From: a virus
DNA: 48,169 nucleotides
Virus record (IMG/VR): IMGVR_UViG_3300047167_000024
Location: 1 to 48,169 of that record
Direction: 5' to 3' (one strand)
Shown here: piece by piece, positions 14,475 to 46,918 of the stretch
Position numbering within the stretch: position 1 is the first letter of the stretch
How the letters are laid out: each line of letters begins with the position of its first letter
Made by a program: the position numbers and the translations under genes
The notes under the pieces: model-generated
What the model saw: the letters and a program-made list of their open reading frames with translations, nothing else
Databases searched by the model: none
Told to the model about the DNA's origin: nothing

Positions 14475-16241
14475 ATGTCCCACAGACGCGCTAAAACCAC
14501 CCCGAAAATCTTTGTTTCTGACCGCGAATTGATTAAGAAGAAAGTACTTGATATTACCAAAAGAATCGCGGACTTAATTGGCTCTACGCTCGGCCCAGGG
14601 GGTAGGGTGGTTCTCTTGGAAAGTGACCTGGAAGGAGTGAGCCACCGTATTTCAAAAGATGGTTTTAATGCGTTCAGTGCGATTGGAGCAATTGATTCGA
14701 TTGACCACGTTATTATCGAGACTGCCAGGGATTGTGCTCAGCGTGTAGGAGAAGGTGCTGGAGATGGGACTACGACCACAACTATTTTAATGTACCAACT
14801 TATTAAGAATATTTTCGAATATTGTCAGAATAACCCTAGATATAGTCCACAAAAGGCTGTACGTAAAATTAAAAAGGCTGTAAGTGAAATCCTAGTTCCT
14901 TACATTCAATCTAGAGCTATTAAAATCGATGAATCCAATACTGAACTTCTAAAGAAAGTTGGTACAATTAGTGCAAATGGCGATTCTGAAATGGCCAATA
15001 AAGTCTACGAATGTTTTGAAATGATTGGATTTGGAGAAGGCTCTCATATCACCATCAAAGAAGTTCCTGGTCCAGAAGGATATGAAATTTCTAGAATTGA
15101 TGGTCTACCTATCTATAGCGGACTTGAAGACCTAAATCGCTTTAGCAACGTTTTTATTTCCGATATAGGAAATCAGAGGGCTTTTTTGGAAAAACCATTA
15201 TTTATTCTATTTGATGGAATGATCAACGATCTTATCCAAATCACAGACATCTTAAATCAAATTGGAGAAAAGTATTCTGAAGGAGATCAGAACTTTAAAA
15301 ATACAATTGTTGTGGCCCATGGATTTTCCGATAATGTTCTTACCACACTAGCACTTAATTTTGCTAATAATGCAACAATGAATATCATGCCACTTAAGAC
15401 TCCGATGAGACAGTTTATTAATTCACAAACCGCTTTTTTATATGATCTAGCCGCATTCACGGGAGCCAAGGTGTTTGGTCTTAAGAACCAACTTGCAAAC
15501 GCTACTCTTAACGATTTGGGCTCAGGAATGGAATACTTTGAGTCTTATCGTTACCGTTCTACTGTCGTTGGAGATCCGGAACCAATGAACGTGGAAGTCA
15601 GGGCCGCAGACTTAACTAAGATGATCGAAACCTCAGAATCAAAAGCTGAAAAGATTTGGCTACAGGAACGTGTAGCACTTTTGACCTGCGGGATTGCTAA
15701 GTTCACCATTTTTGCTGGTTCAGGAGCAGATCTCAAGGAAAAGCATGACCGGGTAGAAGACGCTACCATGGCCATGCGTTCAGCTATTAAATATGGTTGT
15801 TTACCAGGCGGTACACGCCTTGCGATTGACATGGCCATTTTATTGGCTAGTGAACTTCCAGAAGGTGACCCAGCTCGGGATGTATTGATGGAATCTCTAT
15901 TGAGCCTTCCAAAGACACTCTTAGACAACGCAGGACATAATCCGGATGAAATTGCGGAAGTGATTAGTAAACTAATTGATCACCCAGAATTGGTTTATGA
16001 TGTTGAGAATGATGAATATGGGTCAGCAGAAGCCTTAGGTCTGTTTGATAGTACTAAAGCCGTGGAAGAGAGTCTTCTGAATGCCATAAGCATTGCTGGA
16101 GTTTTAGGGACTTTGGGTGGAATTGTGGTAGCTCCTAGGGATGATGAGTTCGAACGTTCAGAAGCTAGGGCTGATAACGAGTATATGAAGGCTGTTAATG
16201 ATCCCGGTTCGATGGTCAACGAAGCGAATCTTCGTCCATGA
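14475..16241 (+). CDS. groEL: Phage GroEL/HSP60 chaperonin
   Basis: 588 residues with the full group I chaperonin core. The ATP site has GSTLGPGGR (36-44; cellular GroEL has LGPKG), KDG (61-63, catalytic Asp62) and GDGTTT (96-101). The equatorial return has RVEDATMAMRSAIKYG and CLPGGTRLA, including the Asp equivalent to E. coli Asp398. The C-terminus lacks a GGM tail. Phage chaperonins fold capsid or other virion proteins; some act without a separate lid. The SD AAGGAG is 10 nt upstream. The next gene downstream is the prohead protease, consistent with a head-assembly role. No GroES is recognised in the window. Confidence 0.95.
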   Translation: MSHRRAKTTPKIFVSDRELIKKKVLDITKRIADLIGSTLGPGGRVVLLESDLEGVSHRISKDGFNAFSAIGAIDSIDHVIIETARDCAQRVGEGAGDGTTTTTILMYQLIKNIFEYCQNNPRYSPQKAVRKIKKAVSEILVPYIQSRAIKIDESNTELLKKVGTISANGDSEMANKVYECFEMIGFGEGSHITIKEVPGPEGYEISRIDGLPIYSGLEDLNRFSNVFISDIGNQRAFLEKPLFILFDGMINDLIQITDILNQIGEKYSEGDQNFKNTIVVAHGFSDNVLTTLALNFANNATMNIMPLKTPMRQFINSQTAFLYDLAAFTGAKVFGLKNQLANATLNDLGSGMEYFESYRYRSTVVGDPEPMNVEVRAADLTKMIETSESKAEKIWLQERVALLTCGIAKFTIFAGSGADLKEKHDRVEDATMAMRSAIKYGCLPGGTRLAIDMAILLASELPEGDPARDVLMESLLSLPKTLLDNAGHNPDEIAEVISKLIDHPELVYDVENDEYGSAEALGLFDSTKAVEESLLNAISIAGVLGTLGGIVVAPRDDEFERSEARADNEYMKAVNDPGSMVNEANLRP

Positions 16242-23234: not shown

Positions 23235-25073
23235 CTAAGCATCCTCTTCATCAGAGTCTAGCATATCACTTATCTCTAAGTCAAGGAGTTCTTTGATTAA
23301 TTCCGGACTTCTAGGTGCATATAACGCTTTTACAGCATTTGGGTTAATTTGCATCATAAGTTGGGTGTTTTGGAGAGAAAAGGGATCGCGTTTGAACTTA
23401 AGCATTGGATCAAAAATTGCAGATGGATCTCCAAAAAACCTGTTCTTGATTTGACCGACATTCAGATAGAAATCGGCTATTTGTCTAAAACGTTCATTAA
23501 ACGGAACCTTGCCGCCAATAGCTTCTCCAACGGGCTCTAAATCCACTTCTTGTTGTAGTGTATCGTAATCATAAAAAAGTGCTGAATCTTGTTGGAGACG
23601 AGCAGCTTCCTGCTCTTTACTTTCGGCATCAAGTCCGCAAAGTTTAACGTCTACCATTTGAGCAAGTTCGGGATCAATGATTGGAACTAAACGCTGATTA
23701 AAAAATATTTGCCAGCCAAGAAGTAAAGGGCGAAGACCAGAATCTCGCGCAGCCGTCATTTTAAATTCATTGTTACTTTCCGAAAGTGTTTGGCTATTGC
23801 TAGCTTTACTTAAGTGTCCATAACCAGGAATTTCATCGGGTGATACGCCGAATGAGGATAGAATATTACGAGCGACGGCATCGTATGTAAACCCAAATTC
23901 TCCATTTTCTAATTTGTCTTGTGTCGTTATCCACTCTACACTATCTTCTTTTGATATACCGAAAATAGGAGTTCTAAAAGCATTGGATACAGAATTGATA
24001 GACGCCGAGTACTGCATTTTTATAGCATCTAGCATCTGCTGATCGCATTCGTCGCTTCGAATAACAAGCATTCCTTTGGCTGACTTACCATTCTGGAAAT
24101 AAATCTTCCAATAAGCTTCGATAGAAATGTGGGTAGTAACACATCCTACGCAGGTATCTAAGGGTGAAACAGGATATCCGTTGTGTTCTATGTCCGTGCT
24201 AGGAAATAAATTGTACACGATCATTTCGTCGTGGGAAAACGCCTGTTTTGGCTGCATTTCTATCACTTGAAGCCACGCGTACTTATCTTCCTTAAGTTTA
24301 GCCATGTCGATATCGAACTTAATACCTTCCATGGCCTCTAGAGCTTTGATTGCAAGTTCGCGTAAATTTGCCCCAACTTGTTCTCCACGACGAACAGCAC
24401 GATAAATAGTTGCGATATCGACCGGACGAAATCTGTGAAAAGGAAAATTACCGTTAGCGTCAGGTTTGGCATCGCGATCGTAAATAATTTCTGTTCCATG
24501 GTTTCCAAAGCTCAGCCCATTTATGGTTTGAGTACTCAAGAATTCCGAAAGAGTCATCTGATCTTGATGCTCTAATCCTTCGGTATGTCCACAATTAAGA
24601 AGTAACTTTTCAAGTCTCTTAACTCGCTCTGAAACTTTTTTATATTGATCAGGGGTTAGGATTTTTAAAAACTCTGGTTTGATCTCAATTTCCATTCCAA
24701 CATCAAAACGGTCTTTACGCAAATGACCGTATAGTTTCATGATGTTTCCACGTGTGCGCAAGATAGCAGCAACTAGATGATCCGTGATACGAATAGTCTT
24801 GATGAGTTCTGGAGGAAGAAGTCGAATTCTTGGCTTGAATAAGCCTAGGAAATTAGATTGAGGAGCTGGAAGTTCTGAGAACGCAAGGCTTGGAGCTTTT
24901 TTCTTAGCAGAACCAGTAGTTTGCTTAATGAGCTGACTCAGAGGACCTTCTGCTTTAGCCAAAAAATCAGGAGACATTTGGCTCAAAGCCGCTTCTAAAG
25001 AAGACATCCCAGATTCATTTACTGGACTGTCACCAAAAGAGAGGGCAATTTTTTTCTTATCTTTTTCGTCCAT
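23235..25073 (-). CDS. Portal protein
   Basis: 612 residues. The region around FRPVDIATIYRAVRRG, then MIVYNLFPSTDIEHNGYP, EAYWKIYFQNGKSAKGMLV and ARNILSSFGVSPDEIPGYG matches the wing/clip/stem order of phage portals (the 'FGVxPxExG' segment follows the stem). Portals form the 12-mer through which DNA is packaged and ejected. An N-terminal LAKAEG and acidic C-terminus are typical of processed head proteins. Its extended -10 (25083-25091) is 9 nt before the ATG. TerL, scaffold and MuF genes surround it. Confidence 0.88.
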   Translation of the reverse strand: MDEKDKKKIALSFGDSPVNESGMSSLEAALSQMSPDFLAKAEGPLSQLIKQTTGSAKKKAPSLAFSELPAPQSNFLGLFKPRIRLLPPELIKTIRITDHLVAAILRTRGNIMKLYGHLRKDRFDVGMEIEIKPEFLKILTPDQYKKVSERVKRLEKLLLNCGHTEGLEHQDQMTLSEFLSTQTINGLSFGNHGTEIIYDRDAKPDANGNFPFHRFRPVDIATIYRAVRRGEQVGANLRELAIKALEAMEGIKFDIDMAKLKEDKYAWLQVIEMQPKQAFSHDEMIVYNLFPSTDIEHNGYPVSPLDTCVGCVTTHISIEAYWKIYFQNGKSAKGMLVIRSDECDQQMLDAIKMQYSASINSVSNAFRTPIFGISKEDSVEWITTQDKLENGEFGFTYDAVARNILSSFGVSPDEIPGYGHLSKASNSQTLSESNNEFKMTAARDSGLRPLLLGWQIFFNQRLVPIIDPELAQMVDVKLCGLDAESKEQEAARLQQDSALFYDYDTLQQEVDLEPVGEAIGGKVPFNERFRQIADFYLNVGQIKNRFFGDPSAIFDPMLKFKRDPFSLQNTQLMMQINPNAVKALYAPRSPELIKELLDLEISDMLDSDEEDA

Positions 25074-28318: not shown

Positions 28319-28347
28319 ACTTTAATATAATAACCTTGAAAAATCAA
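28319..28347 (-). promoter_or_regulatory. Candidate promoter for the gene at 28298
   Basis: TTGATT (28342-28347), 17 nt, TAAAGT (28319-28324) on the minus strand. It overlaps the stop of the HNH-Mom gene. Confidence 0.4.
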
Positions 28348-30053
28348 GTAATTTTCCTTTTCGGATATGGCTCGAATTTTTTTAATATTTTCATATAGAT
28401 AGATGAAATGTTCTTTTTATCTCTCTTGTCTTTTCCTAAAAACAACACATATTTACCCTTATTGGGTTGAACAATTTGTTTGCATGATTGTTGATGAACC
28501 TTTCCCTTTTTGTTTAAGATATCAAGTACATTCTTAGGCATGGCTTCTCTATCCATATATTTATTTGCTTTATTCCAATGTTTTTCCCATTTGATACCCA
28601 ATTCTTTAGCATATTTTCTAAATGTAGATGCTTTTCTAAAATATCTCCCGTTTACTAGCTTACCACTCTCCAGTTCGTATAGGGCTTTTGATCCAAAATA
28701 ATTTCCGAGATAGTTAAAGTTACAGGCTTGATAAATAGTCCCAATTTCTCCCGCAGCATGGTCAGAATAACCGAAAAATAGTCTTTTTGTTGTATTCTCG
28801 ACCATCCAATTACAAGAAAACATTAAGAGCTTGGAACCAAGATTTTTGGGGGTCCAGGAAGCGGTCGCCCCCCTCGTAATTTGAGCCTCTAGGTTTTTAC
28901 CTTCTTTTTTATTAGTATATGCGTTGGGATCGGTTACAACAATAACTCCACCCAAAATACCATTAATTCTAGCTGTAAATACCCATTTAGGAGCATAACC
29001 AATGGTTCCGAGCCACTCATAGCGTTCAATGAAGAGTTTGTGTTCTTTATTGAATTTTTCGGTATAAAAATCAAATTCATTAATTGTAGAATCGATGGGC
29101 ATGTTATTATCAATATCTTCTGTACGAGTAGCAAGCTTTCTGTTGTATTGATGACATGTACCTACTTCAATTTCCAGACCAAACTTATTACCTTTACTTT
29201 CATTTAGTCGTTCTGGCAAATATTGCATATTCCAAGCGACATGAAGTCCACAAACATTCTCTCCTGCGATAGGAACGATATGATCTACACAATATCCATC
29301 AGGTCTATTTTTATAGATGTTTTTGATATCCTCGATCTGTTGTGGGGATAACCATGGTGGCATGGCCTGCTTCTTTCTAGCTCTATAATTGGCTGTTCTG
29401 CCTACTTTTTCTTTTTTAGTTCTCTTATTGTATCTACCTTCAATTTCTTTTCTAGCTTCTGGATTTTCCGTGGCCCAACGAGTTGCTTTTTCAATATAAT
29501 ATTCTTTGTTTTCTTCGTAATATTTTTCGTACATTTCTTGAACTTTTTCAGGATTGTTTTCTCTATAAGTAGAGGTCCTTTCTTTGATTTCTTCGCAATT
29601 TTCTTCATAATAAACATTGCAACAGACTTTACATGCAGAGACTGCTCCAGTAAGTCTGTTATTATTTTTATGAAACTCATCTAATAGTTTAAAATCTTTA
29701 CACTGAGAGCATTGTTTTTTGCCATTTACGATAGGCTGATGATCAAGCCAGCGACGAGACAAAGCTTCTTTTTTAGCTTCTTTAGAAAGCTTAATATCTT
29801 GTTCTTGGAAGATTTTTTGGAGGGAAGGTTTTTTGATACCAGTTTGTTTTACGATTTCAGGAATAATCATTCCCTGATGTCTAAGAGAAATAGCTAATTC
29901 AACTTGTTCGTCAGTATACTTCCTTTTTTGAGAAAGTTTTTTGCTAACACATTCTTGTGAGCAAATTTTTGTAGAATAGTGCTGAGTAACAAATTCCTTA
30001 CTACAGACTTCGCAAATTTTATTATAATCGTAAACATACTTTTTCTTACTCAT
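28344..30053 (-). CDS. HNH endonuclease fused to Mom-like DNA-modification (GNAT) domain
   Basis: 569 residues from MSKKKYVYDYNK; an in-frame ATG at 30071 lies within the promoter -10 and is unlikely. Order: zinc knuckle (ICEVCSKEF ... CSQEC), HTH-like segment (~45-85), second zinc knuckle (CSQCKDF ... CKVCC), HNH core (YCVDHIVPIAGENVCGLH ... NMQYLPERLN, ~253-290), then from ~335 a domain resembling phage Mu Mom and its relatives: FIERYEWLGT, RGATASWTPKNLGSKLL, FFGYSDHAAGEIGTIYQA, CNFNYLGNYFG. Mom uses a GNAT fold to convert adenine to a carbamoylmethyl form that resists restriction. The HNH part would cut DNA. Located between capsid and terminase genes, with its own promoter. Confidence 0.8.
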   Translation of the reverse strand: MSKKKYVYDYNKICEVCSKEFVTQHYSTKICSQECVSKKLSQKRKYTDEQVELAISLRHQGMIIPEIVKQTGIKKPSLQKIFQEQDIKLSKEAKKEALSRRWLDHQPIVNGKKQCSQCKDFKLLDEFHKNNNRLTGAVSACKVCCNVYYEENCEEIKERTSTYRENNPEKVQEMYEKYYEENKEYYIEKATRWATENPEARKEIEGRYNKRTKKEKVGRTANYRARKKQAMPPWLSPQQIEDIKNIYKNRPDGYCVDHIVPIAGENVCGLHVAWNMQYLPERLNESKGNKFGLEIEVGTCHQYNRKLATRTEDIDNNMPIDSTINEFDFYTEKFNKEHKLFIERYEWLGTIGYAPKWVFTARINGILGGVIVVTDPNAYTNKKEGKNLEAQITRGATASWTPKNLGSKLLMFSCNWMVENTTKRLFFGYSDHAAGEIGTIYQACNFNYLGNYFGSKALYELESGKLVNGRYFRKASTFRKYAKELGIKWEKHWNKANKYMDREAMPKNVLDILNKKGKVHQQSCKQIVQPNKGKYVLFLGKDKRDKKNISSIYMKILKKFEPYPKRKIT

Positions 30054-30061
30054 ACATGTAC

Positions 30062-30089
30062 TATATATCATTAGCTATATAGATGTCAA
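30062..30089 (-). promoter_or_regulatory. Sigma70-type promoter for the HNH-Mom gene
   Basis: TTGACA (30084-30089), 16-nt spacer, TATATA (30062-30067) as extended TGATATATA, on the minus strand; 8 nt to the ATG at 30053. It starts directly after the capsid terminator. Confidence 0.65.
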
Positions 30090-31581: not shown

Positions 31582-32556
31582 TTATTTTAGCAGGTGACTA
31601 ATACTGTTAACGTTGACCTGACCAGTCAGATAAAATGCGTTGATTGCATCTCTATCAGATTTTTTAAGGGTTGGCTCCGATGCCTTCGCCTTAAGAACTT
31701 CATGGATTTCGCTCTTGGTAGGAGCTTTTTCTTCTTTGTGTGTTTCGGATTTAGCGATAACATCCAACGAAGTAATTGCCTTACCTTGAGGAGCAGCTTT
31801 CTTAGCAAAAGCAGTCAAAAATTCTTTAATTGCTGCTTTTTCAGCTTTCTCAGCCGCTAATTCAGACTTAAGAAGCTCAACTTCTGTGTTTTCTGACTTT
31901 TCCATTTGCATTCCTTCTGCTTTACTAGCTGGTGATTTAGCTCCAGGTGTATTCTTAGGCTCGCAGGATTCGATTTTACCCGTTTCCGTTTTAGCCATCT
32001 GTGAGCTATTTGACTTACTAGCAGGCGACTTCGCACCGGGAGTGTCTTTTGGATTACTAGCAGACATTTCTCCGCCACATCCATCAGCCTTTTTCATTTG
32101 CGAGCTTTGATCTTTACTAGCTGGTGATTTTGCACCAGGAGTATTTTTAGGTTCACAACTTTCGATGCCATCTTCGCCTTTAGCCATTCCAGCACTATCG
32201 CCGCCCATACATTTTTGAATACAACCGTGATGAGCAGCTAATTCGCCTTTGGACATAGAGCGGTACATTTTTTCCATGTGCGCCATATCTTCATCGTCGT
32301 AATCGTGGCCTTGGTGTTCTGCACCTTCGGCATGCTCTTCATGTTGTTCGCCTTCATGAGCTTCTGGCGCGTGGCCTTCAGCTTCATGTTCTGGCTTTTC
32401 TTCATGTTCTGGTTTCTCTTCATGCTCTTTCTTAGGTGGCATTTCGCCATCTTCGGATTTTGCAAGAGAGGTTTCGGTTTTAGCAAGCTGAGTGGTAAAC
32501 GCTTCTTCTACCTGAGCGATGATATTTGCTACATCTTTTTCGGTATATCTTTTCAT
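31582..32556 (-). CDS. Scaffold/head-core-like protein with repeated motif
   Basis: 324 residues. A Glu/His-rich low-complexity region (EHEEKPEHEEKPEHEAEGH) is followed by three copies of the unit PK(N/D)TPGAKSPASK at ~135, 170 and 200. A helical C-terminus with heptads (ELLKSELAAEKAEKAAIKE) follows. Many K-S-E, K-T-E or K-G-E sites occur (LAKSEDG, MEKSENT, LLKSELA, IAKSETH, TKSEIHE). Position immediately before the capsid gene, charge and disorder fit a scaffold cleaved by the prohead protease. Confidence 0.65.
   Translation of the reverse strand: MKRYTEKDVANIIAQVEEAFTTQLAKTETSLAKSEDGEMPPKKEHEEKPEHEEKPEHEAEGHAPEAHEGEQHEEHAEGAEHQGHDYDDEDMAHMEKMYRSMSKGELAAHHGCIQKCMGGDSAGMAKGEDGIESCEPKNTPGAKSPASKDQSSQMKKADGCGGEMSASNPKDTPGAKSPASKSNSSQMAKTETGKIESCEPKNTPGAKSPASKAEGMQMEKSENTEVELLKSELAAEKAEKAAIKEFLTAFAKKAAPQGKAITSLDVIAKSETHKEEKAPTKSEIHEVLKAKASEPTLKKSDRDAINAFYLTGQVNVNSISHLLK
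31918..32166 (-). repeat. Three in-frame DNA repeats inside the scaffold-like gene
   Basis: Three copies encode PK(N/D)TPGAKSPASK, roughly at 31920-31966, 32015-32057 and 32115-32160, about 95-100 nt apart. The DNA copies differ at third positions, so the repeat is kept at protein level. Confidence 0.75.
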
Positions 32557-36272: not shown

Positions 36273-37403
36273 ATGAGTCTTGCGAAGCACCTCAAAAAAG
36301 CCTTAACTGAAAACTCTCTCTCCAAAGCTGAAAAGCCAGAGCTTGGTGAAGGTGTTAACGATGGCTACAAAGAGCGAGCTTCCAAGGGAGGCGATATTCT
36401 TTGGCATGTCACCATTAAAGGCCAAAAAGAATTATCTCCCGGTATCCCTCTCCACATGTCTTTGAAGGTATTTGAAGATAAAAAACAGATGGACTTAGAT
36501 GAAATCAAACAAAAAGTAAAAGAACTGGGCATAAAAACTCCTGATCCTACGGACTTAACTTTTAAGACAACCATCTTTACATCTGAGAGAGATGGCAAAA
36601 AGTATTATATGTTACTTGTTGGCGGAACGGACAAAGCTTATTCGCATTTTTACGAAAGCTTCAAACACACCGGAACTGTCTATAAAAAGTTCATGCCCCA
36701 CATTACTATCGACAAGGGACTGTACGATAAGATCAATAAAGAAGGAATAAAACCAGACGAAGTAATATTCCGCGATCTGACAGCTGAGTATGGGGCTGGG
36801 AATACCATCCATTCCTTTGATGAAAAAGAACTTGAAAAATCAGAGTCGCTAGAAAAAGGTGCTCTCAAAACTATGCTCACGGCTGGATCGATGGCTGCAG
36901 CATTAGCTTCACCCCACACCACAGACGCAAAAGTTCCTTCTCATGGTCCACTTCATCCTCAAGTATCGGCTTCCCCAAATTCCGACTATTCACGAGAAAA
37001 AATGCTTAATGCGATTTCTCAAGTGGAAAGTAGTGGTGGAAAAAACATGAATCACAAGCCAACCTCACAAGGGACGGCCTATGGACGATGGGCCGTAATG
37101 CCTTCTGTCATTCAAGACACCATTAGACTCAATCCTAAATTGAAGCAGCAGTACGGTAAAGGCCTTAGGCTTCAAGGAGATAACTTAACTCATTACATGC
37201 AAGACAATCCTAAACTAGAACAAGAAATTGTCAATAGCCACCTTAATAGACTCGAACACCATTTTGGTCATAATCCAGAGGCTATCGCTTACGGCTGGAA
37301 TCAAGGAATTACCAATACGAATAGAAGTTTGAAGGCTAAAAAAGATATTTCGGCACATCCTTACGTGCAAAAATTTAAGCGTTATTATGAAAGCGGGAAA
37401 TAA
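36273..37403 (+). CDS. Virion protein: 2H phosphoesterase domain fused to lytic transglycosylase domain
   Basis: 376 residues. Residues ~40-160 carry two H-x-S/T motifs in the spacing of 2H phosphoesterases (LHMSLK, His61-Ser63; MPHITID, His143-Thr145), a fold used by LigT-type RNA cyclic phosphodiesterases and by the anti-CBASS enzyme Acb1. Residues ~190-235 are a linker with K-S-E sites. Residues ~240-376 resemble lytic transglycosylases: LNAISQVESSGGKN (catalytic Glu252), AYGRWAVMPSV and IAYGWNQG. The C-terminal part would open peptidoglycan at entry. The operon implies a virion component, so the 2H domain may be delivered with the particle. The 2H call rests on motifs only. Confidence 0.7.
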   Translation: MSLAKHLKKALTENSLSKAEKPELGEGVNDGYKERASKGGDILWHVTIKGQKELSPGIPLHMSLKVFEDKKQMDLDEIKQKVKELGIKTPDPTDLTFKTTIFTSERDGKKYYMLLVGGTDKAYSHFYESFKHTGTVYKKFMPHITIDKGLYDKINKEGIKPDEVIFRDLTAEYGAGNTIHSFDEKELEKSESLEKGALKTMLTAGSMAAALASPHTTDAKVPSHGPLHPQVSASPNSDYSREKMLNAISQVESSGGKNMNHKPTSQGTAYGRWAVMPSVIQDTIRLNPKLKQQYGKGLRLQGDNLTHYMQDNPKLEQEIVNSHLNRLEHHFGHNPEAIAYGWNQGITNTNRSLKAKKDISAHPYVQKFKRYYESGK

Positions 37404-37405
37404 TT

Positions 37406-37894
37406 ATGAGTATGAGTTTGCAACCAGAAGACATAGATACTGTTGAAGAAGCGGGTATGCTTGACGGACAGCCAACCAAACTATTGAGAACACGTGGCGG
37501 ATTTTGGATGATGGTTCATAAGGGTAAAGTCCTTGCAGGCGGCTCTCATCCTGCTATCGTAAAGCACAGCGTAAGTAAAATGTTCCCAAGTTTTCAGCCG
37601 GTGATGTGTAAATCCGAAGGCTTTGACGACGCAATAGTTGATCAACATTCTCATTATCTTTCTGATGATCTACGTAAATCAGGCCATGACATTTACAGCA
37701 TTCAGAACACTAACGGTATCGAATTTCAGATCACGAAAAATAATCTAAAAATCGCTTCTGTTACTGGTTCTATACAAAATGACGCACTTGTAATTAATGA
37801 GATACAGTTTCCAAAACAATTCGCAAAGGCTTTGGCTGGTGCTACTACTGAAAAAGCTTTGGATTGTAAAATGAAAACGATTAGGATTAAATAA
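37406..37894 (+). CDS. Virion-type protein (162 aa)
   Basis: No family recognised. Starts MSMSLQPEDIDTVEEA, then a beta-turn-rich middle (RGGFWMMVHKGKVLAGG) and a KSEGFDD motif. Two nt after the transglycosylase gene stop. It may work with that protein. Confidence 0.7.
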   Translation: MSMSLQPEDIDTVEEAGMLDGQPTKLLRTRGGFWMMVHKGKVLAGGSHPAIVKHSVSKMFPSFQPVMCKSEGFDDAIVDQHSHYLSDDLRKSGHDIYSIQNTNGIEFQITKNNLKIASVTGSIQNDALVINEIQFPKQFAKALAGATTEKALDCKMKTIRIK

Positions 37895-39763: not shown

Positions 39764-40783
39764 ATGGCTAAAAAGTTAACTATTCAAGAAGTCGTACAAA
39801 GAGTCCGTGAAATACATGGAGATTCTGTTATTCTTGTGGAGTCAACTTACACGAATACATCTACGAACTGTACTTTTATTCACGTTATATATAAAGAATG
39901 GTATCCTACACCAGCTATGGTCCTTCGAGGACAAAGCCATCCTAAGGCTAAACGAAGAAAACCCCGACTTACCCTAAACACCATTAATGAAAGATTACAA
40001 AAGGCACACGGTGGTTTAATTTCTATAGATTATGATACTTTTATTGGCGTGAGCAAAATAGCAACTTTTATAGATAAAGAAATAGGGGAATTTCCTTGTA
40101 GATTAGCTGATGTAATTGGAAAAGGTGTAGGCCATCCTGATAGAACTACTGAAAAACATAAAAATACCTGTATTAAAAACTTTGGAGTAAATAATCCAAG
40201 TAAATCAGAAAAAATCAAAAATAAAAAAAGAAAAACCACTTTTAAAAATTTTGGTGTTGAAAATCCGTCACAAAGTAGCATAGTTAGAGAAAAAGCTAAA
40301 AAAACTAATCTATCTAGGCGTGGGGTAGAATACCCTACCCAATCGACCGAGGTATTGGAAAAAAGAAAACAGAATTCTATAAGTAAGAACGGAATCCCAT
40401 TTCCTGCCCAAATACCGGGGGTAGCCCTTAAACAAGCCAAATCATCTAATATATGCGTTCTTAAAAAACATTGGAAAACTGAGGAAGAATTAGTTTGTCA
40501 GGGTGGGTATGAGTCAAAAACAGTAGACTATCTCAATATTAATAAAATCAACTTCAATTGGCAGCCTGAAACATTTAATATACCCCTAGATGTTATTAAA
40601 ACCAAAAAAGGAAACGAAGTAACTTATCGTCCAGATTTTTATTTGCCCGATCAAGATGTTTGGGTGGAAATTAAGGGCTATATGCGCGGTGACGCTCAGG
40701 TCAAGTGGGATTGGTTTAAATCCGAACATCCCACAGCAGAACTTTGGAATCAAAAGAAGCTTGAAGAAATGGGAATTCTGTGA
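39764..40783 (+). CDS. Free-standing homing endonuclease, PD-(D/E)XK type
   Basis: 339 residues. N-terminal ~120 residues hold HTH-like and beta-rich segments. Residues ~125-215 contain repeats of the K-N-F-G-V-x-N-P-S-x-S type (CIKNFGVNNPSKSEKIK, TFKNFGVENPSQSSIVR, RRGVEYPTQSTEV), a DNA-binding repeat seen in phage homing enzymes. The C-terminus has YRPDFYLPDQDVWVEIKGYM, a PD-(D/E)XK nuclease core. No Shine-Dalgarno. The end overlaps the next gene start by GTGA. Interrupts the virion operon. Confidence 0.85.
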   Translation: MAKKLTIQEVVQRVREIHGDSVILVESTYTNTSTNCTFIHVIYKEWYPTPAMVLRGQSHPKAKRRKPRLTLNTINERLQKAHGGLISIDYDTFIGVSKIATFIDKEIGEFPCRLADVIGKGVGHPDRTTEKHKNTCIKNFGVNNPSKSEKIKNKKRKTTFKNFGVENPSQSSIVREKAKKTNLSRRGVEYPTQSTEVLEKRKQNSISKNGIPFPAQIPGVALKQAKSSNICVLKKHWKTEEELVCQGGYESKTVDYLNINKINFNWQPETFNIPLDVIKTKKGNEVTYRPDFYLPDQDVWVEIKGYMRGDAQVKWDWFKSEHPTAELWNQKKLEEMGIL

Positions 40784-41691
40784 AAAAGAATGCTGAAGTC
40801 TTTTTAATAAAAACTTTAGGCGATAACTTTTTGGAATCGTTAAGTATTTCTTTATCCAAGAGCGAAATTTTTAAGCCTGGAACACGTTCAATTACCGATA
40901 CCAACGACATGTATCAAGGATTACAGATTGTCCCTCGTACGATGTTAAACTTACTTGTCCGAGAACTTTCTCCGATGCAAATTGGCGACACCAAAGAAAT
41001 AAGCATTCCGGGACAAGAAAAAACGATTGTTTCTATTACCAAAAACGAAAGAGATCAATTTTCTGGACAAATATTTCAAAACAATGTTAAGATTAACGAT
41101 TTTATTAATAGGTCTATTCCTGGTCTTGGTCTAGTCTTAATGAGTGTTTTGCAACTCTACTCCATGGACGATTTAGAACAAGACTCTATTCCACAAGACA
41201 AACAATCTGAAATCAATCGCATCATCGACGAACGCCTCAACCTTCATTCCTTGGTCAACAAAGTTGTAGATGGCAGGATCCAGCAAAAAGATGCCATTCA
41301 ACAGTTGTTAATGGCTAGACTCACTGAGGAATTTGCCAAAGAAAAAGCTGCAGCTCAGCCCGTAGAAGCACCTAAGCCTCCGGTGGTGATTATTTTGGAT
41401 CATAAAAAATCTAGACCTCTATCAGAATTCGTCGAAAATAGAAAAAAGAAACTTGGTAAAAAAGAATTCTCCATTGAGATGACTAAAAGTGAAATAGTAG
41501 ATTGTCCAGATTGTGGACAGAACATCTTTAACAAATCTGGGATTTCTGCTTGTCTCTGTTATGGTCAGGATATGGGACGTAAGGTATTTTTGAAGAAAAC
41601 CGAAGATGGAATTAAGGTGAGCTTCCCCAAGTCATGGTCCCCAGAAAATATCGAAATGTTGTTAGAAGTATTGAGGAGAAAAAATGGATAA
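40780..41691 (+). CDS. Hypothetical virion-associated protein (303 aa), GTG start
   Basis: The start GTG overlaps the preceding stop (GTGA). N-terminal LSKSEIF and later MTKSEIVDC are K-S-E sites. The middle is helical; residues ~240-265 have a zinc-ribbon-like CPDCGQNIF ... CLCYGQ. No family is recognised. It overlaps the cyclase-domain gene by 8 nt, so the two are translated together. Confidence 0.75.
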   Translation: MKKNAEVFLIKTLGDNFLESLSISLSKSEIFKPGTRSITDTNDMYQGLQIVPRTMLNLLVRELSPMQIGDTKEISIPGQEKTIVSITKNERDQFSGQIFQNNVKINDFINRSIPGLGLVLMSVLQLYSMDDLEQDSIPQDKQSEINRIIDERLNLHSLVNKVVDGRIQQKDAIQQLLMARLTEEFAKEKAAAQPVEAPKPPVVIILDHKKSRPLSEFVENRKKKLGKKEFSIEMTKSEIVDCPDCGQNIFNKSGISACLCYGQDMGRKVFLKKTEDGIKVSFPKSWSPENIEMLLEVLRRKNG

Positions 41692-43471
41692 CCAAAAACC
41701 TTCTCAACTTTACTTTGCCTTTGACGGAGATTTTATTGGTCGTAGACACGCGGAAGCAATTCTTTCCGACGATGTAGATAGTATTAGTAATGTATCTCAA
41801 GAGATTACCCACGCCAATGAAATGGTTAAAGACTTCGTCGAACAAAACGGCGGACAAATGATTAGTTTTGGCGGAGACGAGGGTGTATTCTCTGCCCCAG
41901 CCGAGATGGTTGAACTTCTTGAACAGCTTCGAAAAGACTACCAATACATGGTAGGCGCTACGCTCTCTATTGGCTATGGATCAAAACCAAGTGAAGCCGC
42001 CAAAGCATTGCTTGCAGCAAAAGAGCGTGGAAAAGATCAAATTGTTCAGTACGATGAATCAGCTGAACAAGACGCACAAAAAACACAAGAACATAGAAAT
42101 TTAGAAAACAACCAAGAAGAAGTGGTTGGCGAAAGCGCTAACAATACGGAGCCACACCAAGAATCTCAGGGCGGCTACGCTAATGAAGTTGCTTCCGATG
42201 GTATCACTAGAGATGATCCTCCTAAGTACGACAACAATCGTGGTTACGATTCGGGCTACAAAAATTCCGACAAAGAAGACCGTGGCGATTCCTATAGAGC
42301 TGATGACTTAACTCCTCCCGTTATTGCCAAACCAAATCTTACACCTAAGAATCCTGTAATGGAAGCTACTTCAGGAGATGTTCCTGAAACAAGCCGTCCA
42401 ATGAACAATGTAGAGCCTAATCCAGGCGAGCAGCCACCGGAAGACAAAAAGCCTGTTTCTAAATATTATGATGGGCAAGCGGAATGGATTAAACCAGACC
42501 AAGATGAAAACGGAGCACCACAAAGTATGGGCGATGCAACGAATCAAAATAGACCAAGTGATTTAAAGTATATGAACCATGGTCAGAAAGAACAGCAGGC
42601 CGATCAACCCGGAGAGGATTCCACCACTGACGTAGCGGAACAAGCTATGTCTGATGAAATGGGGACCGATGGAACTGCCAATCCTACGCCTATAGAAAAT
42701 GATGGTCAGCATTGTCCAGGCTGTCGCTGTGATGAACATTCCCAAGAGAATAAGCCCATGGATCAAGTCTTAGATCAACATATCGATAATGCTTCAGACT
42801 ATACCAACTCTATTGGTGAAGGTGGAGATAGCAGGAACCAAAGCAATGGCGGAGATCAGAGTTCTGATGATGGAGAAAGCATCGAAGATATCCTAGATCA
42901 ACATCTGGATAACGCTGCTGATATGGCACAAAATGGTGATGTTAATTCTGACGGGATGGATCCTAATGGAATCAGCAGACCCGAAGACTATAACGCTAAA
43001 CAAGGCGACATGGGCTTGTCTGAAGAAGACGCACAAAATGAAGATCCTAATTTGGATGAAGTCTTGAGAGATGGTTTGGACAGTCATGCCGATAGCATCC
43101 AAAGGGAAAAAGTTATCGACATGGTGGGCCAAGCATTGGATGCCTTTAAGGGACAGAAGCAGATTTTGGACAAAGCCAAGACAGCTGCACCTGAGTTGCA
43201 CGATGCATGTATAATGCTTTTAAGAAGCCTTATAGAATTGTGCTCATTGGCCGGAATCGACGAAAGTCAAGCAGAACAAGAAGTCAACGAAATCGAAGGT
43301 GGCCAAAATCCAGAAGAAGCACCGGGTTCACAAGAAATGCCACAAAAAAGCACTCCTGAAGAATCTGAAGAAGCTCCTTGTGAGAATTGTGGACATGATA
43401 AGAAAAAGCCTGCGGCTCCTAAGGAGGGGTCGCAGAAACCCCCACAACAGTTCGCCCAAAGCTCAGGCTGA
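41684..43471 (+). CDS. GGDEF/mCpol-like nucleotidyl cyclase domain fused to acidic virion-type tail
   Basis: 595 residues. Residues ~8-123 show, in order, YFAFDGDFIG (metal-binding Asp14/Asp16), ISFGGDEGVF (63-66, GGDE), ATLSIGYGS (94-99) and AAKERGKDQIVQY, the signature run of the GGDEF/Cas10-palm/mCpol superfamily. The short length is like minimal CRISPR polymerases (mCpol). Members make cyclic or linear oligonucleotides from NTPs. The remaining ~470 residues are acidic and disordered, with LDQH(I/L)DNA motifs and a C-terminal CENCGHD. It is in the virion operon; whether it is packaged is unknown. Both metal-binding acidic motifs are present, so activity is plausible. Confidence 0.75.
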   Translation: MDNQKPSQLYFAFDGDFIGRRHAEAILSDDVDSISNVSQEITHANEMVKDFVEQNGGQMISFGGDEGVFSAPAEMVELLEQLRKDYQYMVGATLSIGYGSKPSEAAKALLAAKERGKDQIVQYDESAEQDAQKTQEHRNLENNQEEVVGESANNTEPHQESQGGYANEVASDGITRDDPPKYDNNRGYDSGYKNSDKEDRGDSYRADDLTPPVIAKPNLTPKNPVMEATSGDVPETSRPMNNVEPNPGEQPPEDKKPVSKYYDGQAEWIKPDQDENGAPQSMGDATNQNRPSDLKYMNHGQKEQQADQPGEDSTTDVAEQAMSDEMGTDGTANPTPIENDGQHCPGCRCDEHSQENKPMDQVLDQHIDNASDYTNSIGEGGDSRNQSNGGDQSSDDGESIEDILDQHLDNAADMAQNGDVNSDGMDPNGISRPEDYNAKQGDMGLSEEDAQNEDPNLDEVLRDGLDSHADSIQREKVIDMVGQALDAFKGQKQILDKAKTAAPELHDACIMLLRSLIELCSLAGIDESQAEQEVNEIEGGQNPEEAPGSQEMPQKSTPEESEEAPCENCGHDKKKPAAPKEGSQKPPQQFAQSSG

Positions 43472-43670
43472 GGGCACCCCAGCAATAGGTTCAGTCAAAA
43501 AATTACCAAGTAAAAAACCTACACCGCATATTAAAAAACTGCCTCTGCCAGAGGGAGCCGTAAATTCTAAGGGGCAAAAAAATATCACATTGCCAAACGG
43601 AAAGAAAGCTCTGGTTGATATGAAGGTCGGTAGAGTCAAGGGCCCGCAGGGGACTCCTGTAAAAGGTTAA
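43395..43670 (+). CDS. Reading frame overlapping and extending past the cyclase gene; start or frameshift unclear
   Basis: The +1 frame is open from about 43299 to the TAA at 43668-43670, 2 bases before the next ATG. The part after 43471 has real-gene character (KKLPLPEGAVNSKGQKNI, PNGKKALVDMKVGRV). No start (ATG at 43395, GTG at 43299) has a Shine-Dalgarno. AAGGAGGGG at 43421-43429 and CCCCC at 43439-43443 could support slippage from the cyclase gene instead. The coordinates use the ATG and are uncertain. Confidence 0.4.
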   Translation: MIRKSLRLLRRGRRNPHNSSPKAQAEGTPAIGSVKKLPSKKPTPHIKKLPLPEGAVNSKGQKNITLPNGKKALVDMKVGRVKGPQGTPVKG

Positions 43671-43671
43671 C

Positions 43672-44553
43672 ATGTTAAAAATCAATATCAATTCAAAAGA
43701 CATTCTTGATCTTTGCAAGGATGAAATGGAAAGTGCAAAAAAGGCACTTTACACTGGCGTTGATAGACTTGCCAAGGCCGCTGAATCACATCTAATAGAA
43801 TTAGTCAAAACCGAACTCAATCCGCACCATGCCGACATCTTCATGGGTGGCGGCAATAAAAAAGAAAATATTGAATTAGATTCTCCTAGTCCTGGCGTCC
43901 ACGTTCTTACTATTAAAGATAACGCTGCACTAATAGATTCGGGTGAGAAACTCGATATGAAAAATTCGGACTGGCTTTTTAGTAGCGATAAGACTAGAAT
44001 GGGCAAAAACGGTAGATATTTAGTTATTCCATTTAAGCATGGTGGCAAGGGAAGCTCAAGTGGGAGCGAGACATCTAAATTTAAAGCCCAGCTTACTACC
44101 CGTATTAAAGAAGAAATCGATCTCCAAAATAAAACCAGAAAAGCTGCGGGCCTTAAAAAGATAAGTCTAAGTGGTATTGAAAGAGATTCGCAAGGTCAAA
44201 TCAAAGAGGGTAAGCTTCATACTTTTGATATCTTCGGAAACAGGAAAAATCCCAACTGGTCTGATATGCCATTGACTGGTTTGAATGTTTATCAGAAAAT
44301 CCATAGAGATGAGCACGGAACTCCTATTACTGACAAAAAGGGCAAAGTTAAAGCAACACGCTCGTGGATGACTTTTAGAACTGCCTCTGAAAGTACGGTA
44401 GTTAATCCTGATACTGGAACTACTCCAAAAGATAAGTTTTTTTATCCCGCACCAAAGACAAAAGACTTTTTAGCTAGAACTGGTGAATGGGCTGAACAAG
44501 AGTTTTACGAAAAAATCCTTCCCTCGATTTTTGAGAAATGGGGAGACAAATGA
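43672..44553 (+). CDS. Virion-type protein (293 aa), possible tail-completion
   Basis: No firm family. The N-terminal helices (ILDLCKDEMESAKKALYTG) and the middle (GGKGSSSGSETSKFKAQL) with RTASESTVVNP and FFYPAPKTKDFLARTG suggest similarity to HK97 gp10-like tail-completion proteins ('xRTAS', 'PAPKTKxFL'). Its end overlaps the next gene by ATGA. Order relative to the sheath gene fits a neck/tail-joining role. Confidence 0.65.
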   Translation: MLKININSKDILDLCKDEMESAKKALYTGVDRLAKAAESHLIELVKTELNPHHADIFMGGGNKKENIELDSPSPGVHVLTIKDNAALIDSGEKLDMKNSDWLFSSDKTRMGKNGRYLVIPFKHGGKGSSSGSETSKFKAQLTTRIKEEIDLQNKTRKAAGLKKISLSGIERDSQGQIKEGKLHTFDIFGNRKNPNWSDMPLTGLNVYQKIHRDEHGTPITDKKGKVKATRSWMTFRTASESTVVNPDTGTTPKDKFFYPAPKTKDFLARTGEWAEQEFYEKILPSIFEKWGDK

Positions 44554-45563
44554 TATTTCAAACAGACGCTCTCCTAAAAGTTTTGATCGAAGAGAATTTG
44601 GAACAGATCAAACTCAATCCTTGGCTCATTGAGCAAATTCTATGGGATTTTACACACAGCCAATTTTTGAAAACCAAATATGGCGATAAGCAAATAAAAG
44701 CCTGTCTTGAATGGTATCAAACGAATGGTATCAACGTCTTTCATCAATTCGTTAAAGATAAAATGCGTTTTCCGGCAATTGCCATTACCCTTGGCTCCAG
44801 CACCGAAGTTCAAGAACTCAGAACCATGGGAGATGTGAGTCAGCATACCGTGGGTTTAGCTCCAACAACGGTGGGGCAGAAGATACCTTACGTGGTTGCA
44901 CCGTTCGTCCCTTACGGCTATGATCCAGCCACGGGCGAAGTCGGCGTTCCTCAGGGAATTGATATTGCTCTAGTGTCTGCCGGAATGGTTCTCTTAAATC
45001 CCGTGACAGGAAATGGAACACCAGTTGTAAGCATTGATGGTCAGAATATATTTATTAAACCTGGAGTAGAACTTGACGCGAGTACTCTCGGTGTGGTACC
45101 CCAATACAGATATTTCCAGACCAGAATGGGCCGAAGCTTCTTTCAAGAAACATGGAATATCACCTGCGCCACAAACGATCCACAAACACTTTTATGGTTG
45201 CACTCCATCGTTATTTTTGGCTTGTTGAGATACCGTGAATTCATGGAACATAATGGAGTTCTGGAAATAACTAATTTTAGTAGTACTGACATTTTCAACG
45301 CCGATTTCTCAAATGCTGAAGGTGAAGAAATTTATTGCAGACAAATTACTATTACCAATAAGGTAGAGCAAACTTGGCCAAGAGATCTACATAAGAAAAT
45401 CGAATCAGTCATCTTAAGAGATACTAATCCGGCAGCGGTTACAGTTTCTGATCCACAAGGATTCGTTGGTGGGATTCGTATAGTTAGTAATTTGACAACT
45501 CCAGCTTTGGAACAGAACGATCAAAGCTGGTATACTGTTGATGAAGCTGATGAGAATGAGTAA
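44550..45563 (+). CDS. Virion-type protein (337 aa)
   Basis: Start at the ATGA overlap with the preceding stop; GGGGAG lies 4-5 nt before the ATG. An upstream in-frame ATG lacks a Shine-Dalgarno. Long helical N-terminus (VLIEENLEQIKLNPWLI), then a beta-rich body (YVVAPFVPYGYDPATGEVG) and an acidic end. No family recognised. A neck or tail-terminator role is possible by place. Confidence 0.75.
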   Translation: MIFQTDALLKVLIEENLEQIKLNPWLIEQILWDFTHSQFLKTKYGDKQIKACLEWYQTNGINVFHQFVKDKMRFPAIAITLGSSTEVQELRTMGDVSQHTVGLAPTTVGQKIPYVVAPFVPYGYDPATGEVGVPQGIDIALVSAGMVLLNPVTGNGTPVVSIDGQNIFIKPGVELDASTLGVVPQYRYFQTRMGRSFFQETWNITCATNDPQTLLWLHSIVIFGLLRYREFMEHNGVLEITNFSSTDIFNADFSNAEGEEIYCRQITITNKVEQTWPRDLHKKIESVILRDTNPAAVTVSDPQGFVGGIRIVSNLTTPALEQNDQSWYTVDEADENE

Positions 45564-45880: not shown

Positions 45881-46918
45881 ATGTCCGATTCCAAAAAGCT
45901 ATTCACTGCACGCGAAGCTGCCCAAGCTGTATTGGCCAAGGCAAAACAAATTTTAGAAGACTCATCGCTCGCGAAGTCTGAAAGGCTTAAGAAGGATGGA
46001 ACACTAGGTTCAGCTATTGGCTATCCAGGATCTCCTCCCCCAGCCCCTCCTGTAAATAAGTCTGAGATGAAAAAATACGAAACTGAAAACAAGAAAGCTC
46101 CTTCTAAAGCCAAGGAATTGCCTTCTCAGAAGCTAGAACGTGACTATAAGAATTTTGAAACACAAAAAGAAAGTCCTAATTCTTCCGGAGATGATAAGCG
46201 CCAAGAAAAGCAAGTTTCTCCTTCAGGCAATCCAAAAGAAGAGGCTGAGGGAAACAATAAGCCTGATGGCATGGAACCAGAGTTTGAATTCAAAAATAAG
46301 GTTGAGAAAGAGTTAGCTAAAGAAAAAGCTTCTCATATGGTTAAGTCCCAGTCTGGCATGCATACCGTGATGTATCAGTCGATGAAAAAGTCTGAGAATC
46401 CGGACGAAAAAGAAGATGCAGAACTCGGCGAACAAGTTGAACACGATGTAGAAGAACACCATAAAGACATGGGTAACGAAGTAGACGAAGAAGGACATGA
46501 TATGGCAAAACCTGAAGATAAAGCTGAAGGCCAAACCGAACGCGCTTCCATTCCTATGTGTATCGGTTCAGCTAAGCTGTCGAAATTTATGGAATATAAG
46601 CATTCCAAACGTAAGGCTGCTCAAGGAGCACAATCTCAAGCCCCGGCTGCTGTGGGCCAAGATGCCTCAAACGCTCCTCAAGCTGGTTCTACTCAAGCAG
46701 GCCAACCCGATCAAAGCCGTCCTAAGACTCAGCCTATGGATGGTGATGTTAATAAAATGGGTAAAGCCGAAAGTAGCTTCGATAAGCTTAAACATAAGAT
46801 CGAAAATAAAGAAGGATATTCCGAAAAAGGCGCTGCTGGAGCGGCTTATGAAGCCGGTGTAAAAAAATACGGTAAAGCTGGTATGGCCGCTAAAGCTGCT
46901 GCAGGACGTAAAAAGTAA
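45881..46918 (+). CDS. Disordered, charged virion/scaffold-type protein (345 aa)
   Basis: No family for the first ~290 residues: charged, Gln/Lys/Glu-rich, with repeated K-S-E-type sites (LAKSERL, VNKSEMK, MKKSENP, MGKAESS). The last ~45 residues (SSFDKLKHKIENKEGYSEK then YGKAGMAAKAAAGRKK) match, from memory, a short conserved phage tail-region module. The SD is weak. The TAA overlaps the next start. Possibly a tail assembly or internal head protein cleaved by the prohead protease. Confidence 0.7.
   Translation: MSDSKKLFTAREAAQAVLAKAKQILEDSSLAKSERLKKDGTLGSAIGYPGSPPPAPPVNKSEMKKYETENKKAPSKAKELPSQKLERDYKNFETQKESPNSSGDDKRQEKQVSPSGNPKEEAEGNNKPDGMEPEFEFKNKVEKELAKEKASHMVKSQSGMHTVMYQSMKKSENPDEKEDAELGEQVEHDVEEHHKDMGNEVDEEGHDMAKPEDKAEGQTERASIPMCIGSAKLSKFMEYKHSKRKAAQGAQSQAPAAVGQDASNAPQAGSTQAGQPDQSRPKTQPMDGDVNKMGKAESSFDKLKHKIENKEGYSEKGAAGAAYEAGVKKYGKAGMAAKAAAGRKK

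Follow-up and report, generated by a model that had tools for sequence, protein, structure and literature searches.

A predicted mCpol nucleotide cyclase domain in the late virion gene cluster of a myophage lineage

Background

Minimal CRISPR polymerases (mCpol) have been known since 2025 as the enzymes of the bacterial anti-phage system Panoptes, in which they produce an inhibitory cyclic nucleotide. A 48,169-nucleotide stretch of viral DNA, IMG/VR record IMGVR_UViG_3300047167_000024 (hereafter the window), raises the question of what such a domain is doing in a phage. A sequence-only reading had placed an mCpol-like domain at the head of a protein encoded among virion genes, and had suggested a phage-made nucleotide signal, a decoy or a particle-borne enzyme as possible roles. 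No report of a phage mCpol was found in the literature searched, which left out most subscription papers. Here, we ask whether the domain is a genuine mCpol, whether its active site has been preserved, how it is related to the Panoptes enzymes, and which function is best supported by its genomic setting.

Results and discussion

Identification of the mCpol domain

The head of the 595-residue protein is a true mCpol domain by sequence, fold and retained catalytic residues. It is matched by the Pfam family PF18182 with E=2.8e-19 and 70 bits (cut-off 26.4) over residues 10-123, corresponding to the entire profile (1-114/114), by NCBIfam NF033576 with 50.5 bits (cut-off 40) and by the PADLOC model CARF_HEPN_mCpol at 4e-9, while a phmmer search of the PDB with the domain retrieves the OptS structures 9mnr and 9nwn at ~1e-7. 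The motifs FDGD (residues 13-16), GGDE (63-66), SIGYG (95-99) and AAKERGKDQI (111-120) follow one another in this order, and the matches to Pfam, NCBIfam and the solved OptS structures indicate that this string represents a real domain rather than a chance resemblance. The sequence-only reading had listed the same four motifs in the same order, had noted both acidic metal-binding motifs, had preferred mCpol over GGDEF or Cas10, and had described a fusion to a long acidic tail. All these claims held: D14 and D65 align with the corresponding aspartates of OptS, the assignment to mCpol is supported by HMMs, Foldseek rank and profile search, and the tail has a pI of ~4.2. The domain limits it had proposed, 41684-42058 (residues ~8-123), are close to the exact ones (Table 1).

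Table 1. Features of the mCpol locus in the window (all positions are those of the window)
Feature	Position	Strand	Basis
Probable 2H phosphoesterase (H61-M-S ... H143-I-T) fused to a transglycosylase SLT domain, in the mCpol gene cluster	36273..37403	+	motifs, Foldseek
303-aa gene with zinc-ribbon-like CPDC...CLC motif	40780..41691	+	8-nt overlap with mCpol gene
Whole ORF: mCpol head, acidic low-complexity tail, helical segment	41684..43471	+	595 aa, ATG start; architecture shared by relatives
mCpol (minimal CRISPR polymerase) domain, residues 10-123	41711..42052	+	Pfam, NCBIfam, PADLOC and PDB matches, AF2 model, residue table
Predicted metal-binding D14	41723-41725	+	alignment to KpOptS D6
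Predicted metal-binding D65	41876-41878	+	alignment to KpOptS D57
Acidic Q/N/S/G/P-rich tail, probably disordered	42059..43048	+	composition, motifs
Conserved segment, probably helical, REKVIDMVGQALDAFKGQKQILDKAK...LIELCSLAG	43049..43258	+	alignment; seen by eye in Mx1 as well
Candidate +1 frameshift region: Shine-Dalgarno-like AAGGAGGGG (43421-43429), then AAACCCCCA	43421..43444	+	comparative frames (inferred)
Conserved C-terminal domain in +1 frame, NSS...SVKKLPSKKPTPHI...RVKGPQGTPVKG	43445..43670	+	comparative frames
293-aa conserved gene directly downstream of mCpol gene	43672..44553	+	synteny; neck or tail completion suggested by position only
Phage terminator-type gene	44538..45563	+	family matches, PF23932 / phrog_1000

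Fold and active site

An AlphaFold2 model of the domain, built from six phage sequences without templates, has a pLDDT of 90.7 and a pTM of 0.83; the OptS entries were released in the PDB in August-September 2025. In a Foldseek search of the PDB, OptS structures occupy ranks 1-6 (E 1.2e-8 to 5.7e-7, rmsd 1.4-1.7), with GGDEF and Cas10 proteins ranking lower; the best match, 9pd0, is superimposed with a TM-score of 0.88 on the target and 1.6 A. The sequence-only reading had regarded the lack of any palm/cyclase match as grounds for its own rejection; such a match was found, with OptS in first place, and, to the extent that this can be judged computationally, the refutation did not materialise. 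A profile of the family matches OptS at ~1e-40, which is not an independent confirmation, as the Klebsiella sequence (KpOptS) was included in that profile.

Residues D6 and D57 of KpOptS have been demonstrated to be catalytic (PMC12657218), and they are the ones that align with D14 and D65 of the window protein. One of the two adenine-selecting residues of OptS, S30, corresponds to S38, a position reported to vary strongly across mCpols (PMC12657218); the other adenine-contacting residue, N34, is replaced by T42. Among the 11 uncultured phage lineages in our residue table, D65, D16, G19, K113 and K117 are invariant, while D14 and S38 are each kept in ten, the exception at D14 being an asparagine in L035. 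The domain is under purifying selection, as judged from a dN/dS ratio of ~0.15 between the window and its relative L001; for other pairs the silent sites are near saturation.

Relationship to Panoptes, GGDEF and Cas10 proteins

The phage domain resembles OptS (K. pneumoniae KP67, PDB 9mnr/9pd0; the ECOR31 mCpol is 9nwn) in its fold, in the full length of the mCpol domain and in the positions equivalent to D6, D57 and S30. OptS, however, is a stand-alone bacterial protein of ~120 residues paired with OptE, a 2TM effector, whereas the window domain heads a much longer protein from a phage virion cluster, shows 26-28% identity and has no effector. In the phylogenetic tree, the OptS clade (support 99/98) excludes all phage domains, which group together with support of 58/63; the tree is small, weakly supported at depth, and includes only three OptS sequences. 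A simple hydropathy scan of 33-48 kb revealed no OptE-like neighbour with two membrane spans, and no CBASS genes, which are common but not required beside Panoptes, were detected among those window neighbours that were family-searched. Because the OptS clade is separate and the scan found no OptE-like neighbour, we place the window domain outside the Panoptes system, most likely in a subfamily of mCpol owned by phages. A captured bacterial Panoptes gene could explain the shared domain family, but the exclusion of all phage domains from the OptS clade and the lack of an adjacent 2TM effector make this very improbable, in contrast to a Sulfitobacter plasmid locus, where mCpol is accompanied by a neighbouring membrane-protein gene and by CBASS.

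According to another alternative, the domain would be a GGDEF-type diguanylate cyclase, making c-di-GMP to manipulate the lifestyle of the host. In its favour are the GGDE motif, the GGDEF structures that come next in the Foldseek ranking, and the annotation as GGDEF or diguanylate cyclase of two of the three proteins from uncultured Caudovirales phages found in BFVD (A0A6J5L1I5, A0A6J5L0Y4 and A0A6J5LEQ5; 365, 396 and 358 residues), which contain this cyclase fold or a similar one (TMq 0.86, 0.69 and 0.68). On the other hand, the Pfam diguanylate cyclase GGDEF family does not match the window protein, whose motif reads GGDEG and which reaches only GGDEF_GdpP at E 0.043, below the cut-off; mCpol is the better match by all three approaches mentioned above, and the serine linked to adenine is present. 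We therefore consider this alternative unlikely. With palm 2 of Cas10 (Csm1/Cmr2) the domain shares the palm fold and the GGD motif, but PF22335 yields only 23-26.6 bits, under the cut-off of 27, and neither an HD, nor a zinc, nor a second palm domain was found; the tail contains no Pfam domain.

Neither plasmids nor 50,697 phage records yielded a match to the window domain, and KpOptS as a query found none in phages; the cultured relative described below was reached solely via divergent members of the family. Weak mCpol matches in bacterial genomes (22-38 bits) lie mostly in long ORFs; the segments inspected read like Cas10 palms, and none of the matches was counted as mCpol. Three further matches in genome contigs (L025-L027) look GGDEF-like, and PF18182 is not significant in those genomes. 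A scan based on the terminator-type gene was also abandoned, as the alignment was too diverse and the terminators of Mx1 and L035 added nothing usable.

Phage relatives and gene neighbourhood

This gene is present in related IMG/VR contigs of 16-165 kb. The Pfam cut-off for mCpol is exceeded in 11 of the 11 metagenomic records tested, while that of Myxococcus phage Mx1 falls just below. All 11 uncultured lineages have the domain on one and the same acidic protein, and on contigs long enough to show it the tail sheath lies downstream. The order of genes, i.e. the 303-aa zinc-ribbon-like gene, the mCpol gene, a gene for ~290 residues, the terminator-type gene and then the tail sheath, is constant at all loci whose neighbours are on the contig. 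The mCpol domain is missing from the cluster at none of the loci seen, and there was no sign among them of the presence/absence variation typical of accessory genes. The virion setting claimed by the sequence-only reading was thus confirmed: the window also encodes the portal, terminase, major head protein and head protease, and the tail sheath lies downstream of the mCpol gene in related contigs and in Mx1.

Genes of the homing endonuclease type occur at differing points around the mCpol gene (window 39764-40783; L001:4898-5983; L014:4136-4885; L016:4419-4970). A partial further member of the family was found at the end of a contig (L082:2-211), with the D65 position kept (GSGDEAI). Elsewhere in the window we noted a phage GroEL-like chaperonin (14475-16241; phrog_5725, 3.8e-70) and a single ORF with endonuclease VII-like and Mom-like DNA modification segments (28344-30071).

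A cultured relative without the active site

Myxococcus phage Mx1 is a virulent contractile-tailed phage (PMC6070905). Its protein WNM70340 (OR576727.2), annotated as hypothetical, exhibits the same gene order and architecture as in the window, with an mCpol-like head, a tail, the helical segment and the C-terminal domain; it scores 57 bits with an mCpol HMM built without Mx1, and is found by tblastn from L035 at 5e-8. It differs from the window protein in that S, E, A, Q and G replace D14, G19, D65, K113 and K117, and in that its C-terminal domain is fused in frame. Thus, the aspartates whose retention the sequence-only reading had wanted verified are kept in the close relatives, D65 in all and D14 in all save the L035 noted above, and both are lost in this distant one. 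As the five residues are lost jointly in Mx1 and kept jointly elsewhere, the set is arguably functional where it is kept; equally, catalysis cannot be universal in the phage mCpol family. The retention of the domain in Mx1 without catalytic residues, together with the asparagine in L035, implies that the fold has some value without catalysis. Mx1 also encodes a protein of 1479 residues annotated as a NUDIX hydrolase (L036:2442-6881), in which we discerned by eye ADP-ribosyltransferase-like and transglycosylase-like segments with K[SA]E sites (see below) between them; it resembles an injected polyvalent protein.

It is because of Mx1 that a structural role is the main rival of an enzymatic one. 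According to this explanation, the mCpol fold serves as a dimerisation module of a neck, tail or internal virion protein; its nucleotide chemistry would be an ancestral trait or serve regulation, and could be dispensed with. It is supported by the universal presence of the domain in the loci seen, by its survival in Mx1, and by the position of the gene among late virion genes, overlapping its neighbour by 8 nt. Against it stands the purifying selection on the catalytic set in 10/11 other lineages, since D14, D65, K113 and K117 would not be expected to persist in a module of purely structural function; we consider it a real contender, albeit clearly the weaker one. The non-canonical sites of L035 (D14N) and Mx1 would also agree with a nucleotide sponge or pseudo-enzyme that captures nucleotides, cyclic or linear, but synthesises none; most members, however, have kept both metal-binding aspartates and both lysines, and we regard this possibility as unlikely.

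Tail and C-terminal domain in another frame

Neither the tail nor the helical segment gave a convincing family match in Pfam or PHROG; the tail contains a CPGCRC motif (residue 344) and two LDQHxDNAxD repeats (residues 363 and 404). A conserved domain of ~55-70 residues continues past the stop codon of the mCpol ORF. Its frame relative to the mCpol ORF differs between phages: L028, L034 and Mx1 have the domain in frame, the window, L001, L002, L006 and L014 have it in +1, and L016, L032 and L035 in -1. The region in which the frame varies spans 43421-43670 in the window, L016:6624-6890 and L035:3208-3537, and was also delineated in L028, L034 and L036 (Mx1). In L016 and L035 a dnaX-type slippery heptamer A_AAA_AAG immediately precedes the stop, and in L035 the frame of the C-terminal domain offers no ATG, GTG or TTG ahead of it. 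A Shine-Dalgarno-like AGGAGG is found upstream in the window, L001, L006, L014 and L016. From this comparison of frames we infer that the C-terminal domain is probably reached by a programmed ribosomal frameshift, here in a gene other than the tail-chaperone genes where such shifts are usual; independent initiation of the domain is not excluded in the +1 group, where start codons occur upstream.

A probable 2H protein and a putative prohead-protease motif

The probable 2H protein of the cluster (Table 1) contains two HxS/T motifs, of which H61 and H143 are invariant in nine relatives, followed by the C-terminal SLT domain. Its 2H model is mediocre (pLDDT 68.7); the top Foldseek matches are mostly 2H enzymes (E 0.03-0.08), the best being the anti-CBASS nuclease Acb1 (E 0.03, prob 0.90). 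However, Acb1 HMM matches to this protein are absent or below cut-off, eight related records yielded no member of the Acb1 family at E<=1, and a PDB search with the 2H alignment gave chance matches only. The protein could conceivably cleave cyclic nucleotides or RNA ends, a substrate inferred only. Enzymes for making and for breaking a signal would then lie side by side in a single cluster, which we regard as a possible lead and not as a result.

These data bear on counter-defence against Panoptes or CBASS, in which the phage would supply an inhibitory or decoy cyclic dinucleotide beside its own cyclic-nucleotide-degrading 2H enzyme. This is a narrower form of the explanation that we prefer, which leaves the purpose of the product open. 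It draws support from the finding that OptS products hold OptE off (PMC12657218, PMC12657230) and from the Acb1-like protein in the same cluster; it is weakened by the poor 2H model, by the failure of the Acb1 HMM, and by the lack of accessory-type variation among the loci seen, and remains merely possible. A fixed core position is more usual for a core function than for accessory counter-defence.

The motif [LIMFV]xK[SA]E was counted 17 times in virion-side proteins, about ten-fold the 1.8 expected from shuffling, compared with 1 against 1.1 in other genes; it was spotted by eye before counting, and the shuffling overstates its strength. K[SA]E is present seven times in the protein adjoining the major head protein, and also between the domains of the 2H-SLT protein. 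From this distribution we infer that it is probably a prohead-protease site, which would mark proteins packaged in the head. The loci concerned are 31582-32556, 36273-37403, 37406-37894, 40780-41691, 45881-46918 and the portal gene 23235-25073, where the motif often lies between domains. K[SA]E does not occur in the window mCpol protein; those of Mx1 and L035 have it ahead of the C-terminal domain.

Proposed function

As outlined above, homology, fold, both metal-binding aspartates, the adenine-selecting serine, the fixed position and architecture, and purifying selection have been shown by computation. We favour, with a probability of about 0.55, the interpretation that the window domain is an active mCpol-type nucleotide cyclase homologous to OptS, representing a subfamily owned by myophages and encoded in their late neck/tail cluster; the activity is inferred, and the side-chain geometry has not been inspected. 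By analogy to OptS, two protomers would dimerise, with D14 and D65 holding Mg2+ and NTPs, and the dimer would condense the NTPs, probably ATP, to a cyclic dinucleotide. Points that weaken this interpretation are the domain of Mx1, kept without its catalytic residues, the asparagine at D14 in L035, the T42 in place of N34, the lack of K[SA]E in the window protein and the fixed core position of the gene. The acidic tail, the helical segment and the C-terminal domain added by frameshifting may link the enzyme to the virion or to virion assembly; it would then be available at a late stage of infection and might enter the cell along with the DNA. This particle-linked role has indirect support only, as it rests on gene position and on the K[SA]E proteins of the cluster, without proteomics. 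It may be speculated that the product is a phage-made ligand misleading nucleotide-sensing host immunity, e.g. by keeping Panoptes-type effectors inhibited or by competing with CBASS signals. Such a decoy is our leading, tentative guess; its link to defence depends on the domain family alone, because no OptE-like or CBASS gene was seen nearby. Signal, decoy and particle-borne enzyme, the options left by the sequence-only reading, all remain possible, neither supported nor excluded by direct data.

Conclusions

A bolder, merely possible interpretation is that a cyclic-dinucleotide synthase belongs to the core equipment of a myophage lineage and is associated with the particle. The virus would then impose a second-messenger signal on its host, upon infection or afterwards; the same cluster would hold a 2H phosphodiesterase to match, and a frameshift would set the share of protein that carries the C-terminal domain. 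The phage subfamily of mCpol described here has an intact active site and resides in a late virion cluster, while the cyclic-nucleotide signal has so far been known only from the bacterial side. The natural loss of the active site in the cultured phage Mx1, together with the small size of the domain, its known catalytic residues and a known assay, provides a clean test system. If the domain is active, phages would not only degrade or sponge such signals, but also synthesise them.
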